A stretch of 64,000 bases of DNA, taken from NCBI RefSeq assembly GCF_031851795.1, contig NZ_CP134696.1, forward strand, positions 1,731,576 through 1,795,575, given 5' to 3'. Under the pieces are notes generated by a model. That model had not been told where the DNA came from and searched no databases. It saw only the letters and a program-made list of their open reading frames with translations. Positions 5,331 to 21,368 of the stretch are shown piece after piece (the stretch's first letter is position 1; the number at the start of each line of letters is the position of its first letter). Position numbers and translations under genes: made by a program. The stretch comes from Pontibacter sp. G13 (GTDB lineage: Bacteria; Bacteroidota; Bacteroidia; J057).

Positions 5331-5529
5331 GCCAGACCGCCGGAGATCGCCCATATGAATCAGAAAAAGCGAATCCCGAGCACTTTGAATCCGCTTTTTC
5401 GGTGGGTTTATCACTATGCTTAATTGTGCTTGCCTGTAAACTTGAAGGAATAGCCCACATAGGGAATCCACATGAGGTATGCGTATTCTTGGATAGAAAC
5501 CGGCGGATAGCCCCCCAAACATCCCCCCC

Positions 5530-5817
5530 AGCGCTGTAAGCGCGACATATCACAGCCAAGGGTTTCAACCCTTGACATACCAAACCCTTGGAGAAAATCC
5601 CCCACCCTAGCGCTGTAAGCGCGACATATCACAACCAAGGGTTTCAACCCTTGACATACCAATACCCTTGGAGAAAATCCCCCACCCTAGCGCTGTAAGC
5701 GCGACACAACACAGGCAAGGGTTTCAACCCTTGACATACCAATACCCTTGGAGAAAATCCCCCACCCAGCGCTGTAGGCGCGACACAACACAACCAAGGG
5801 TTTCAACCCTTGACATC
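5530..5817 (+). repeat. 79-80-bp tandem repeat, four units
   Basis: Units start at 5530, 5609, 5689 and 5768. Each has AGCGCTGTAAGCGCGACA, then AAGGGTTTCAACCCTTGACA (a small palindrome), then a spacer CTTGGAGAAAATCCCCCACC. Isolated copies of the first two blocks occur in opposite orientation at 4519 and 4729. No unique spacers and no cas genes exist, so it is not CRISPR. Frames across it are shadows. Confidence 0.85.
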
Positions 5818-5917
5818 CAAGCCCCAAACCCGTTGCCCCCCCCAACAACAAAACAGCCGACCAAGCGCTCAAAAACACTCGATCGGCTGCACGAAACAAT
5901 TTCTAACGCATGTCGGC

Positions 5918-17312: not shown

Positions 17313-18182
17313 ATGAATATCGTCGATACGCATTTTCACCTTTGGGACCTCGACAAACTGAGATATCCATGGTTGGATGAGGAGCCCACCCTGAATCGGT
17401 CCTTCCTGCTGGAAGACTACTACACCGCTACCGAAAATCTCACAGTGGAACAAATGGTCATGGTCCAATGTGAATGCCTGCCTTCACAAGCATTGGAGGA
17501 GGCCAAATGGATCGCCGAATGTGCCCAGCAAGAGCCCAGACTCGCGGGTATGGTAGCGTTTGCTCCATTGGAACAAGGCCGTGCTGTAGCTAGCCACCTC
17601 GATCAACTCCGCGAGATCAACCCGAATGTCGTAGGGATTCGCCGCCTGCTCCAAGGGGAACAGGACAACGCATTTTGCCTGCAACCCAGCTTTATTGAAG
17701 GAGTAGGCTTGCTAGAGCAATATGATCTCCCCTACGATCTCTGCATCAATTGGAGACATCTTCCCTACGTCTACGAATTCGCTCAACAGCTCCCCAATGT
17801 CCGTATGGTGATCGATCACATCGCCAAGCCAGATATCAAACATGGAGGATTTGACGACTGGGCAGGATGGATGGAAAAGCTCGCCAAGCTCGATCATGTC
17901 CACTGCAAACTGTCCAGCCTCGCCACAGAAGCAGACCAAGACAATTGGACCATTGACGATTTGAGGCCATACGTCGATCATGTACTGACGCACTTTGGTG
18001 TAGAGAAATGCATGTATGCCAGTGATTGGCCGGTATGCACATTGGCAGCGGATTATGAGACCTGTGTCTCTACGCTCCAAACCCTGATCGGCGGGCTGTC
18101 CGAGTCCGAACAAGCGGCGATCTTCCGCGAAAATGGTCGGGCATTCTATCGGCTGCCGGTTCAGATGGGCACCACAACTTGA
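17313..18182 (+). CDS. Amidohydrolase-2 family sugar lactonase (L-fuconolactonase-like)
   Basis: 289 aa of the COG3618 amidohydrolase family, which includes L-fucono-1,5-lactonase and L-rhamnono-lactonase. The metal-binding N-terminus is DTHFHLWD (His7, His9). Other landmarks are RYPWLDEEP, GIRRLLQGE, MVIDHIAKP with its conserved His, CKLSSLATEAD and YASDWPVC with the catalytic Asp. It would open the lactone made by the SDR dehydrogenase, giving L-fuconate or L-galactonate for the following steps. No signal peptide, so cytoplasmic. It is 54 bp downstream of the GH2 gene. Lactonase family is firm; sugar identity is inferred. Confidence 0.85.
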   Translation: MNIVDTHFHLWDLDKLRYPWLDEEPTLNRSFLLEDYYTATENLTVEQMVMVQCECLPSQALEEAKWIAECAQQEPRLAGMVAFAPLEQGRAVASHLDQLREINPNVVGIRRLLQGEQDNAFCLQPSFIEGVGLLEQYDLPYDLCINWRHLPYVYEFAQQLPNVRMVIDHIAKPDIKHGGFDDWAGWMEKLAKLDHVHCKLSSLATEADQDNWTIDDLRPYVDHVLTHFGVEKCMYASDWPVCTLAADYETCVSTLQTLIGGLSESEQAAIFRENGRAFYRLPVQMGTTT

Positions 18183-18335
18183 TGATTAGGCAAAAGCCTT
18201 CAAGACTTTTTGTTCAGCTATTTTATCAATCGCTATCCATGTAGTATGGGACAGCTGGAGTTTCCTCCCGGAAGCTTCAGCTGTTTTTGGTTGAAGATCC
18301 CAAGGATGGGTCAGTAGGAATTCTGTGGATTACAC

Positions 18336-18417
18336 AAAAAAAGGGAGCCCGTAGACTCCCTTCCCAAACCTCTCAACTCGCTATAAAATCTTGTTGTGTT
18401 TCTGTCCTGCTGTAAAG
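18336..18417 (-). ncRNA. Putative sRNA copy 1
   Basis: Minus strand: CATCTTTG box at 18425-18418, core with TTATAGCGAGTTGAGAGG, then stem AAGGGAG / CTCCCTT (18362-18341 on the minus strand) and a T8 run. Loop sequence differs from other copies (CTACGG against CAGATG) and the spacer upstream is unrelated, while the core is nearly identical. No ATG lies in the transcript start region. Confidence 0.6.
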
Positions 18418-18515
18418 CAAAGATGCTGAAAATCTGGGCAATGCTCGATAAAGCATTCAACGAAAGCATCATCATTTTCCGGATCGAAGGGCCGAAAGCG
18501 GAAACCCGCTCAGGC

Positions 18516-18600
18516 AAAAAAAAAGGGAGCCATCTGACTCCCTTCCCAAACCTCTCAACTCGCTATAAAATCTTCCTGTGCTTTCTTTCCGTGTGCATGA
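18516..18600 (-). ncRNA. Putative sRNA copy 2
   Basis: CACCTTTG box (18608-18601), conserved core, terminator hairpin at 18544-18523 and T9 run. First of the seven units at exact 203-bp spacing. Confidence 0.6.
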
Positions 18601-18717
18601 CAAAGGTGGCAAAAAACTGAGGATCAGCAGATAACGCATTCAATGAATCCATCATATTTTTCAACCATCCCGCCTGCCAACGTGCGTTCCCGAGTGAGGG
18701 CTGAGCTGCATGTGAGC

Positions 18718-18803
18718 AAAAAAACAAGGGAGCCATCTGACTCCCTTCCCAAACCTCTCAACTCGCTATAAATTCTTCCTGTGCTTTCTTTCTGTGTGCA
18801 TGA
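18718..18803 (-). ncRNA. Putative sRNA copy 3
   Basis: CACCTTTG box at 18811-18804, core TTTATAGCGAGTTGAGAGG, hairpin and TTG-T7 tail. Nearly identical to copies 4 and 5. Confidence 0.6.
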
Positions 18804-18920
18804 CAAAGGTGGCAAAAAACTGAGGATCAACAGATAACGCATTCAATGAATCCATCATATTTTTCAACCATCCCGCCTGCCAACGTGCGTTCCCGAGCGA
18901 GGGCTGAGCTGCATGTGATC

Positions 18921-19006
18921 AAAAAAACAAGGGAGCCATCTGACTCCCTTCCCAAACCTCTCAACTCGCTATAAATTCTTCCTGTGCTTTCTTTCTGTGT
19001 GCATGA
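18921..19006 (-). ncRNA. Putative sRNA copy 4
   Basis: Same module, 203 bp from copy 3; box, core, hairpin and T tail intact. Confidence 0.6.
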
Positions 19007-19123
19007 CAAAGGTGGCAAAAAACTGAGGATCAGCAGATAACGCATTCAACGAATCCATCATATTTTTCAACCATCCCGCCTGCTAACGTGCTTTCCCGAG
19101 TGAGGGCTGAGCCGCATTTGGGC

Positions 19124-19209
19124 AAAAAAACAAGGGAGCCATCTGACTCCCTTCCCAAACCTCTCAACTCGCTATAAATTCTTCCTGTGCTTTCTTTCTG
19201 TGTGCATGA
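19124..19209 (-). ncRNA. Putative sRNA copy 5
   Basis: Same module, 203 bp from copy 4; box, core, hairpin and T tail intact. Confidence 0.6.
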
Positions 19210-19326
19210 CAAAGGTGGCAAAAATCTGAGGATCAGCAGATAACGCATTCAACGAATCCATCATATTTTTCAACCATCCCGCCTGCCAACGTGCGTTCCC
19301 GAGTGAGGGCTGAGCCGCATTTGAGC

Positions 19327-19412
19327 AAAAAAAAAAGGGAGCCATCTGACTCCCTTCCCAAACCTCTCAACTCGCTATAAATTCTTGATGTGCTTTCTCT
19401 CTGTGTGCATGA
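19327..19412 (-). ncRNA. Putative sRNA copy 6
   Basis: Same module with an uninterrupted T10 tail. The box reads AACTTTG and a few core-5' bases differ (AGAGAAAGCACATCAAG). Confidence 0.6.
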
Positions 19413-19529
19413 CAAAGTTGGCAAAAATCTGAGGATCAGTAGATAACGCATTCAACGAATCCATCATATTTTTCAACCATCCCGCCTGCTAACGTGCTTT
19501 CCCGAGCGAGGGCTGAGCTGCATGTGATC

Positions 19530-19615
19530 AAAAAAACAAGGGAGTCATCTGACTCCCTTCCCAAACCTCTCAACTCGCTATAAAGTCTTCCTGTGCTTTC
19601 TTTCTGTGTGCATGA
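19530..19615 (-). ncRNA. Putative sRNA copy 7
   Basis: Same module. One substitution in the hairpin (GGGAGTCATCTGACTCCC) extends the pairing instead of breaking it. Confidence 0.6.
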
Positions 19616-19732
19616 CAAAGGTGGCAAAAAACTGAGGATCAGCAGATAACGCATTCAACGAATCCATCATATTTTTCAACCATCCCGCCTGCCAACGTGC
19701 TTTCCCGAGTGAGGGTTGAGCTGCATTTGAGC

Positions 19733-19817
19733 AAAAAAACAAGGGAGCCATCTGACTCCCTTCCCAAACCTCTCAACTCGCTATAAATTCTTGATGTGCT
19801 TTTTTCTGGTTGCGATA
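19733..19817 (-). ncRNA. Putative sRNA copy 8
   Basis: CATCTTTG box at 19825-19818 as in copy 1, with an unrelated upstream flank. The core from TTTATAGCGAG through the terminator is unchanged. This is the copy nearest the small gene at 20.1 kb. Confidence 0.6.
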
Positions 19818-20088
19818 CAAAGATGATAAAAAGCTGATTGACAGCAGGTAAAACATCCCATGCTTGAATTACACTTTTCAACTATCGTGCAGAAATTTGT
19901 CGATTCGCTTCCCTGAAAGAGGTATCATTCGCTTGGTTTCTTCCCGGGGATTTAGCTTGCCACGTGAATTGCGCTTATGCCGAACAAACAGCACAGGCCA
20001 TCCTCCTAGGTTTGTCCATCTTCTGTGGGCGAAACTTTCTATGAAAAAGTGATCAAATGTGGAAGGATTGCTTAAGGGAGAGAAAAAC

Positions 20089-20125: not shown

Positions 20126-20383
20126 TCAATCCAAGGGGATCAGAGATTGACCGACGAGTTTGACTTTGCGCCGCATACTCATGAAACGTTGACTTCCAAT
20201 GGCGGAATAGTCCCAGTTCCGGCGGTCGAATTCCATCGTCAGGGCAGCTAGGAAGGCCCCTCTTGTTCCAGTCCAGCCATTGACTTCCACCTCACGGTTG
20301 AAGACTTGGACGAGGTTTTCGGAGGAATATTCCTGAAAACGAATCGCCCATTCGGCGCGGTACTGTTGGAGAAAATGAGTCAT
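20126..20383 (-). CDS. Small conserved-looking protein of unknown function
   Basis: 85 aa, not recognised by name. It is soluble and mixed in charge, with ENLVQVFNREVEVNGWTGTRGAFLAALTMEFDRR and a C-terminal MSMRRKVKLVGQSLIPLD. The pattern resembles small Bacteroidota proteins I have seen with similar SARG-type and S-AI- segments, but I cannot attach a family. A clean terminator follows it and about 190 bp separate it from the divergent AraC gene, which supports a real single-gene unit. Confidence 0.6.
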   Translation of the reverse strand: MTHFLQQYRAEWAIRFQEYSSENLVQVFNREVEVNGWTGTRGAFLAALTMEFDRRNWDYSAIGSQRFMSMRRKVKLVGQSLIPLD

Positions 20384-20576
20384 CGTGATACAATTTGTGA
20401 ATGAGCCCGACTTGTATCACGTGCTTCGTTCGCCAATCTAAAAAATGCGATGGATTTCCCCAAAGCCATTTACGGCCAGATTCTCCAAAACATAAACGCA
20501 GCCTTACATTCGGAGACATTTCACATAAAGCAATCTTGGACATTCCACTGCCTAAAGATTTTTGGTACCTTCCGCC

Positions 20577-21368
20577 ATGCGATACACGGAAATATCTCCA
20601 GTTCCCGCCTTACAGGATTTCATCCACAATTACTGGTGCTTTGAGGTATCCGGAAATGAGCCAGTCTCTTTCCCTGTGCAGCATCGTACCCTCCCGGAAT
20701 GTCAACGATCGGTAGTCCTCATTTCTCATCCGTATTATCGAGGAATCCGTATTGCAGGTCCCAGAACCGAAGCTTTTCAGTTGCCTGTATTTCCGCCAGC
20801 CGTCTTCATCGGGATACGATTCCAGCCATGGGTGATCTGGCCTTTCGAAGCGCTGAGTGGCCTTTCGCTCCTCAATGATACTGCCGATGCGCCAACCGAA
20901 ATAGCCAGTGTTTGGGATGCCGATTGGATCGGGCAAATCAAACCCGGATTCGATGACTGGGCGAGATTGCAGGAACAGACAGAAGCACTTCTGTCGGCCT
21001 TCCCGCTCCAATCGCATGCGCTCGTCCGGTATATCTGCCATTCCTTGACCCAGAAGCGACTGATCAAGGAGATTGTTGCAGATATCCCCGCCTCCACCAG
21101 AGTGATCCAACGCACCTTCAAGCAGACGACCGGCCTGACGATGAAGCAATACGCCAGCAATTTGCGGCAGCGAAAACTGTGGGAAGACATGGTCCAATCA
21201 TCCAGTGGATCTATGCTGGAGACCATCTTGGATCATGGGTATTTCGACCAATCCCACTTCATCCATGAATTCCAGCGAAGGATGCAGGTCTCCCATCAGG
21301 ATTTCCGGAAGTACCTCAATTCGATCCAAGTATCGCTGGATCTTTCGGAAGATCTCGTGCATTCCTGA
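20577..21368 (+). CDS. AraC-family transcriptional regulator
   Basis: 263 aa from the ATG at 20577. The N-terminal half (YTEISPVPALQDFIHNYWCFE, then FIGIRFQPW) is a DUF6597-like sensing domain seen in AraC regulators of Bacteroidota. The C-terminal helix-turn-helix pair spans about 165-250, with VIQRTFKQTTGLTMKQYASN and LDHGYFDQSHFIHEFQRRMQ. A TTGG at 20537 and GATTTTTG 18 nt later form a plausible promoter. It may control the secreted protein gene 64 bp downstream or the divergent small gene; no operator was identified. Confidence 0.88.
   Translation: MRYTEISPVPALQDFIHNYWCFEVSGNEPVSFPVQHRTLPECQRSVVLISHPYYRGIRIAGPRTEAFQLPVFPPAVFIGIRFQPWVIWPFEALSGLSLLNDTADAPTEIASVWDADWIGQIKPGFDDWARLQEQTEALLSAFPLQSHALVRYICHSLTQKRLIKEIVADIPASTRVIQRTFKQTTGLTMKQYASNLRQRKLWEDMVQSSSGSMLETILDHGYFDQSHFIHEFQRRMQVSHQDFRKYLNSIQVSLDLSEDLVHS

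Follow-up and report, generated by a model that had tools for sequence, protein, structure and literature searches.

A tandem array of eight short modules in Pontibacter sp. G13 (Bacteroidota) belongs to a family of 16 members in that genome, which probably encodes lineage-restricted, trans-acting base-pairing small RNAs (sRNAs) of ~45-55 nt that end at a terminator and have been amplified locally in tandem. The array occupies positions 18336-19790 on the minus strand of the window, the 64-kb stretch of DNA analysed here. Its module cores start at 18369, 18551, 18754, 18957, 19160, 19363, 19566, and 19769 (plus-strand numbering), with one core-to-core interval of 182 bp followed by six of exactly 203 bp; this agrees with the first-pass annotation, which had described eight minus-strand copies, seven of them at 203-bp spacing. 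Tandem Repeats Finder places the 203-bp repeat at 18514..19837 on the minus strand (period 203, 6.5 copies, 94% matches). The conserved core of that annotation was also recovered, as the 18-mer TTATAGCGAGTTGAGAGG is present in all eight copies; with up to three mismatches allowed, the window held 8 occurrences, all exact, with 0 expected from 100 shuffles. Behind the hairpin of each array copy stands a run of 7-10 T, as expected for the terminator that had been annotated.

The modules, defined as the core plus terminator span of covariance model R1, were all detected by cmsearch on the minus strand. Five of them were part of the model-building set: module 1 at 18336..18390 (82.4 bits), module 2 at 18518..18572 (84.1 bits), module 3 at 18721..18775 (81.7 bits), module 6 at 19330..19384 (83.5 bits), and module 7 at 19533..19587 (81.5 bits), the last with a single stem change in the alignment, from G-U to A-U. 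Modules 4 (18924..18978), 5 (19127..19181), and 8 (19736..19790, the first along the minus strand) were outside that set and scored 81.7 bits each.

Eight further members are dispersed over the genome (7.67 Mb, three contigs). Four of them cluster in a 2.3-kb stretch (C1:5684389-5686675), and the other four stand singly at C1:5604770, C1:5737641, C1:6218162, and C3:60723, in each case by both pattern search and covariance model. Pattern search (up to 3 mismatches) and model R1 agree on the 16 members; the former gave 22 places, from which six without a hairpin by eye were discarded. The exact 18-mer AGTTGAGAGGTTTGGGAA is present in 13/16 members, and L039, on contig C3 (93 kb), still scores 41 bits even though it was left out of model R1. 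In the interval L051:10690-12734, this member lies ~1.4 kb from a ParA-type gene, and it has an unrelated terminator stem; the contig may be a plasmid. A weak model match on the plus strand at L052:8352-8385 (21.9 bits, model positions 20-55), ~590 bp behind member L041, is possibly a decayed copy of the family.

To delimit the conserved unit, ten members with mostly unrelated flanks were compared, namely array copies 1 and 8 together with the eight dispersed ones. Across the block TAGCGAGTTGAGAGGTTTGGGAA (-5..+17) their pairwise identity averaged 0.94; the mean was 0.61 at -9..-6 and across the hairpin at +18..+36, and 0.25-0.33, near chance, in the flanks at -100..-10 and +45..+95; a few member pairs with common flanks reach 0.54-0.88 identity upstream. 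The conserved unit is ~45-55 nt, shorter than the ~85-nt transcript proposed in the first-pass annotation. That all 16 members keep core and terminator while most flanks have diverged to near chance strengthens the small-RNA reading, and a multi-copy small-RNA system, whose transcription we infer, is the best explanation of the data and in our judgement a probable one. The earlier proposal of a multi-copy regulatory RNA is retained to that extent and now covers 16 members genome-wide. Selection on the family is suggested by the likeness of paralogues within one genome, for which gene conversion could be another cause.

The array copies themselves contribute less to this argument. Among copies 3-7, the core (-5..+28) has 0/34 polymorphic columns as against 19/169 elsewhere (P = 0.026). 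Other block bounds gave 1/46 (-9..+36, P = 0.042) and 1/42 (-5..+36, P = 0.064), and comparing copies 2-7 instead gave P = 0.068; the downstream spacer of copy 2 is non-homologous. Since the array copies are recent, this within-array rate signal is weakly significant, and the conservation argument is carried by the dispersed members, not by the near-identical array copies. Copies 1 and 8 had been annotated as units in which the surrounding DNA had diverged around a retained box, core, and terminator. Core and terminator are indeed kept, with 91% and 100% identity to copy 3, respectively, over -9..+36, and ungapped identity upstream drops to 13-51%. Gapped BLAST with the core included nevertheless still finds alignments for both copies, one covering 145 nt of the query with 74% identity and the other 171 nt with 82%, so the ungapped figure understates their relatedness. 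The array has probably grown by unequal crossing-over of the 203-bp unit. Of the two functions offered for the multiplicity at first pass, dosage is the likelier one for the near-identical modules within the array, ahead of copy-specific differences; variants were found among the dispersed members L039, L041, and L042.

All 16 members have a T-run of at least five. In the eight members that were folded, each RNA consisted of a single-stranded 5' part followed by a 3' hairpin, with z from -1.2 to -4.7. L039 retains a strong hairpin with an unrelated 13-bp stem, while the altered stem of L042 gives a fold modestly better than shuffles (27/200 as good). In alignment A4, from which L039 was excluded, 0 stem pairs had both partners changed, so covariation adds no independent proof and the structural evidence comes from L039 and L042 with their divergent stems. 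These features also bear on a rival reading of the family as a REP-like DNA repeat or the remains of a transposon, dispersed and with no RNA function. In its favour, the members are multi-copy and intergenic, other repeats surround the cluster at 5684-5687 kb, and similar sequence (GAAGCTG.TTGGG.GGGC) is found downstream of both L035 and L036. A repeat origin is nonetheless improbable, as hairpin and T-run point in one direction in all members, conservation stops sharply at mostly unrelated flanks, the stem of L039 is different, and no transposase was seen by eye in the neighbouring ORFs of dispersed members.

The array could also be read as a repeated small protein, since an ORF reaching 72 aa runs through its copies. 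In array copies 1-7, frame 0 is open with an ATG; copy 8 has an alternative start instead (80 aa), and an ATG is also found in the dispersed members L035, L036, and L037. However, coding is very improbable because frame 0 lacks a start in L038, L039, and L042; L034 and L041 have an alternative start only, and no single frame both stays open and has a start in every member. The lengths and ends of frame 0 vary, L042 has a stop at +11, and the terminator falls inside the ORF.

The gene neighbourhood of the array consists of a convergent amidohydrolase gene (17313..18182, plus strand; PF04909, 156 bits) on one side, and on the other an 85-aa ORF without a Pfam match (20126..20383, minus strand) and an AraC-type regulator gene (20562..21368, plus strand; HTH_18, DUF6597). 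The array ends toward the convergent amidohydrolase gene and has the AraC-type regulator nearby, and is therefore not the leader of a downstream gene. An AraC gene also adjoins the 5684-kb cluster, but its domain make-up is unlike that of the array-side regulator. Dispersed members sit between long ORFs, with L034 and L035 overlapping a 109-aa mechanical ORF, and no neighbour gene common to the dispersed members was evident by eye in the flanking long ORFs. The four-copy cluster (L048:8300-11400) is set among other short repeats, with recurrent peptide-like frames in the ORF list. The window also contains a second tandem array at 5526-5827 on the minus strand, with a period of ~79 bp; three of its copies score 38-47 bits for Acido-Lenti-1 (Rfam RF01687), which exceeds the gathering score.

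A TTTG box had been annotated at a fixed 75-76 bp before the hairpin. The constant TTTG of the array lies 59-60 nt ahead of the stem, with a second TTTG at 69 in copies 2-7. It occurs at about the same place in the dispersed members L037 and L042 and is absent from the 70 nt upstream of 4/8 dispersed members, and so is not family-wide. Each member was scanned with the pattern TTTG-N17-23-TAnnTTTG and scored against shuffles. The score was clearly over shuffles in 2/16 members (L041, L042) and borderline in L037 (6% of shuffles); the best match in L041 sits 30 nt upstream. A -7-like box ends 5-7 nt ahead of the A of AGTTG in L034, L036, L037, and L042. Promoter elements are unrecognisable in most of the 16 members, with no clear consensus among them. 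A -33 box is one possible reading of the array TTTG, although no -7 box at a suitable spacing from it appeared in the scan.

Taken together, we propose that every module encodes a short sRNA acting in trans. Its transcription would begin close to TAGCG, a position suggested by the conservation boundary rather than by a promoter, and would proceed through a single-stranded stretch of ~20-25 nt, UAGCGAGUUGAGAGGUUUGGGAA, to the intrinsic terminator, yielding an RNA of ~45-55 nt. The single-stranded 5' part would be the conserved functional element and is presumed to serve as an antisense seed on mRNAs, while the hairpin would provide termination and stability. The tandem array would raise dosage, and the dispersed copies, at other intergenic sites with mostly different upstream sequence, could supply the same seed RNA in differing circumstances. 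A candidate partner is an RNA-binding protein of the RRM type, encoded at C1:6456458, which is the one match to PF00076 (83.7 bits) in the genome. The same RRM match, the high copy number, and the presence of GAGG and GGGA in the conserved single-stranded core would also suit a protein decoy, in which the purine-rich core would bind and titrate away an RNA-binding protein to an extent fixed by copy number. Near-perfect conservation spans 23 nt, however, and most single-protein motifs are shorter than this; we consider a decoy rather improbable and trans-acting base pairing the likely mode of action.

The array and seven loci with dispersed members had no Rfam match at the gathering score, in line with the earlier statement that no known RNA family could be linked to the array. 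BLAST against 60 relatives matched 2 genomes, the first being that of Pontibacter sp. G13 itself and the second giving one 29-nt match (E = 9e-4) in the spacer part of the query. Pattern search of 13 genomes from the same family gave ten matches outside Pontibacter sp. G13, all without core plus hairpin by eye. The covariance-model search suggested at first pass was extended to 395 genomes of the class, with the best 14 candidates per genome scored, and recovered 14/16 members of the Pontibacter genome. At E<=0.001, 112 genomes (Pontibacter sp. G13 included) matched the model; among the rows listed, many cover its terminator part alone and others positions 1-55. Among the at most 14 candidates scored per genome, no convincing homologue emerged in the class. 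The best match in another genome, L093, scored 37.4 bits, and the weakest member of the Pontibacter genome 41 bits.

To evaluate such matches, 29 fetched loci from other genomes were compared with the core. As good a likeness was found in 0/200 shuffles for L107, in 1.5% for L104, and in at least 6% for the other 27. L107 (1501-1547) has AGGTTTGGGAAGG ahead of its hairpin, and L104 (1501-1561) has TTTGGGAAGGGAG and more. L107, L104, L093, and L094 begin near the stop of open frames of 494, 96, 295, and 500 codons, respectively, with the stop lying from 17 nt before to 2 nt after the match start; given this position at gene ends, they were taken as ordinary gene terminators. L107 and L104 had been selected by the model for likeness, and their resemblance to the core reflects either chance under that selection or distant relationship.

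No exact match to GCRARTTGAGAGGTTWGGGAA was found in genome contigs of 84,980 species, from which neighbours of the Pontibacter genome are possibly missing, and there were 0 exact matches to GAGTTGAGAGGTTTGGGAA in viral contigs. The blastn matches listed for plasmids and phages cover the terminator half (query 27-52, E 0.03-1), except for one phage row (query 19-51, 85.7%, E 0.09). A class-wide pattern, TTTTCATAG-N6..14-AGGTT, was present in 198/295 genomes but was rejected as evidence of homology, as control counts were often similar; many of its matches look like start codons (ATGAAAA) read in reverse complement. Within the searched scope, the family looks restricted to the Pontibacter sp. 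G13 lineage. The RNA appears new in sequence as far as searched; repeated sRNA genes are already known as a kind.

Among known systems, the closest in layout is FopS (RF04319), whose dispersed loci likewise carry a conserved single-stranded 5' part directly before a terminator hairpin (PMC11697453). FopS, a family of the Bacteroidaceae, has 14 copies in Bacteroides thetaiotaomicron and 12-15 in other Bacteroides, and its RNAs pair near the start codon to repress SusC translation (PMC11697453). Both families have a dozen or more paralogues per genome, 16 in the present case, and Pontibacter sp. G13 is of the same class as carriers of RF04319, in which four loci used as positive controls (L144-L147) score 73-79 bits. 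Membership in FopS was rejected: the best RF04319 score in the Pontibacter genome was 20.5 bits against a cut-off of 56, at a place away from the family loci, and RF04319 gave no row at E<=10 over 18200-20000. The FopS R1' seed, TATTAGATTTAAGGTTAACAAA, and the core described here, CGAGTTGAGAGGTTTGGGAA, have in common only CATAG (4/16 members) and AGGTT (15/16). FopS promoters are canonical (PMC11697453), while clear promoters were found here in 2/16 members. The main text on FopS (PMC11697453) does not use the word "tandem", and half of the present members are tandem. FopS is bound by the RRM protein RbpB, and the Pontibacter genome likewise has a single RRM match, a candidate partner. Bacteroides have been described as lacking obvious Hfq and ProQ (PMC7366714).

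Modules of the form TTTTTTCATAG-N9-10-AGGTT with an apparent hairpin and no Rfam match were seen in other Bacteroidota (L137, L173, L140, L148, and L149, at position 1501), L137 and L173 being two similar copies within genome G085. These modules may be further FopS-like sRNAs. At L143:1387-1533, a match to the Rfam family BTnc231 (RF04180) overlaps an TTTTTTCATAG...AAGGTT module.

Among the matches listed from the open-access literature, none described sRNA genes arrayed in tandem in a member of the Bacteroidota. LhrC of Listeria monocytogenes has C-rich anti-Shine-Dalgarno loops, unlike the purine-rich core described here. By description, the family resembles LhrC in its multi-copy siblings, LhrC1-7 (PMC11697453). 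The arrangement of the array is best likened to NsiR1 of Nostoc sp. PCC 7120, a ~60-nt sRNA with 12 tandem copies, of which the seven central ones are identical and the five peripheral ones diverged (PMC9045159). The array here has the same geography of identical centre and diverged edge, with several direct tandem copies that each have their own terminator. NsiR1 differs in being cyanobacterial, in having individual promoters with a known motif, and in having one copy antisense to hetF (PMC9045159). GibS of B. thetaiotaomicron is similar by description, with a conserved and unpaired 5' seed that base-pairs with mRNAs at their start codons, but is 145 nt long with two more hairpins ahead of the terminator (PMC7366714).

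As a special case of the small-RNA explanation, the seed may act like that of FopS, pairing at the starts of SusC-type transporter mRNAs and blocking their translation. The FopS-like layout of a single-stranded seed followed by a terminator in a dozen or more copies is consistent with such uptake control, and 29 SusC genes over cut-off are present in the genome. CATAG is found at the 5' edge of four dispersed members (L034, L036, L038, L039) and is complementary to CUAUG as a start context, just like TTTTTCATAG in the FopS query consensus; all eight array copies, however, read TTTATAG and have no CATAG. Pairing was analysed in an exploratory manner. In ungapped stacking of the 23-nt core, 28 SusC starts averaged -14.6 and 137 others -13.2 (Mann-Whitney P = 0.0027; 28 of the 29 SusC genes, with start codons re-chosen and L209 left out), a difference matched by 1.7% and 2.7% of shuffled seeds. 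By RNA duplexfold, in contrast, SusC starts did not stand out from the rest, with P = 0.58 for the array seed and 0.18 for the seed with CATAG. The SusC mean alone was matched by 5.7% of dinucleotide-shuffled seeds (two values, 5.7% and 1.7%), and over all 166 starts of a further analysis, itself suggestive for SusC, the real seed was no better than shuffles (13/40 lower). The best single site, L181 at -22.2, was matched by 65% of 200 shuffled seeds among 165 starts and by 16.5% of 200 among the 28 SusC starts only. CTATG is enriched at SusC starts (8/28 vs 8/137 others), but the comparison is confounded because SusC starts were called more accurately: TATG itself occurs in 20/28 as against 30/137.

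Complementarity to SusC starts is thus weak and method-dependent; SusC is one possible target class, and FopS-like control of uptake by this seed is doubtful. Near-matches to the core in the genome were not commoner than those to the reversed pattern, and no compelling mRNA target emerged from the near-match search or the three pairing analyses. One site with 1 mismatch in 16 (C1:1894457), internal to a gene that resembles transketolase by a motif, was rejected as within chance by estimate.

To our knowledge, the sRNA biology of Bacteroidota beyond Bacteroides is little explored. The 16 very short RNAs predicted here, with their conserved 23-nt core, offer a simple experimental entry point to most of the family. 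The family also bears on why bacteria multiply sRNA genes, whether for dosage or for separate control of identical seeds. A more ambitious and doubtful proposal is that it forms an independent second network of the FopS type, in which 16 copies of a seed RNA, half of them in tandem, would together with an RRM protein set the translation of many SusC-type transporters. If this is true, multi-copy "seed plus terminator" RNAs would be a recurring solution across Bacteroidota, with a seed of its own in each lineage.
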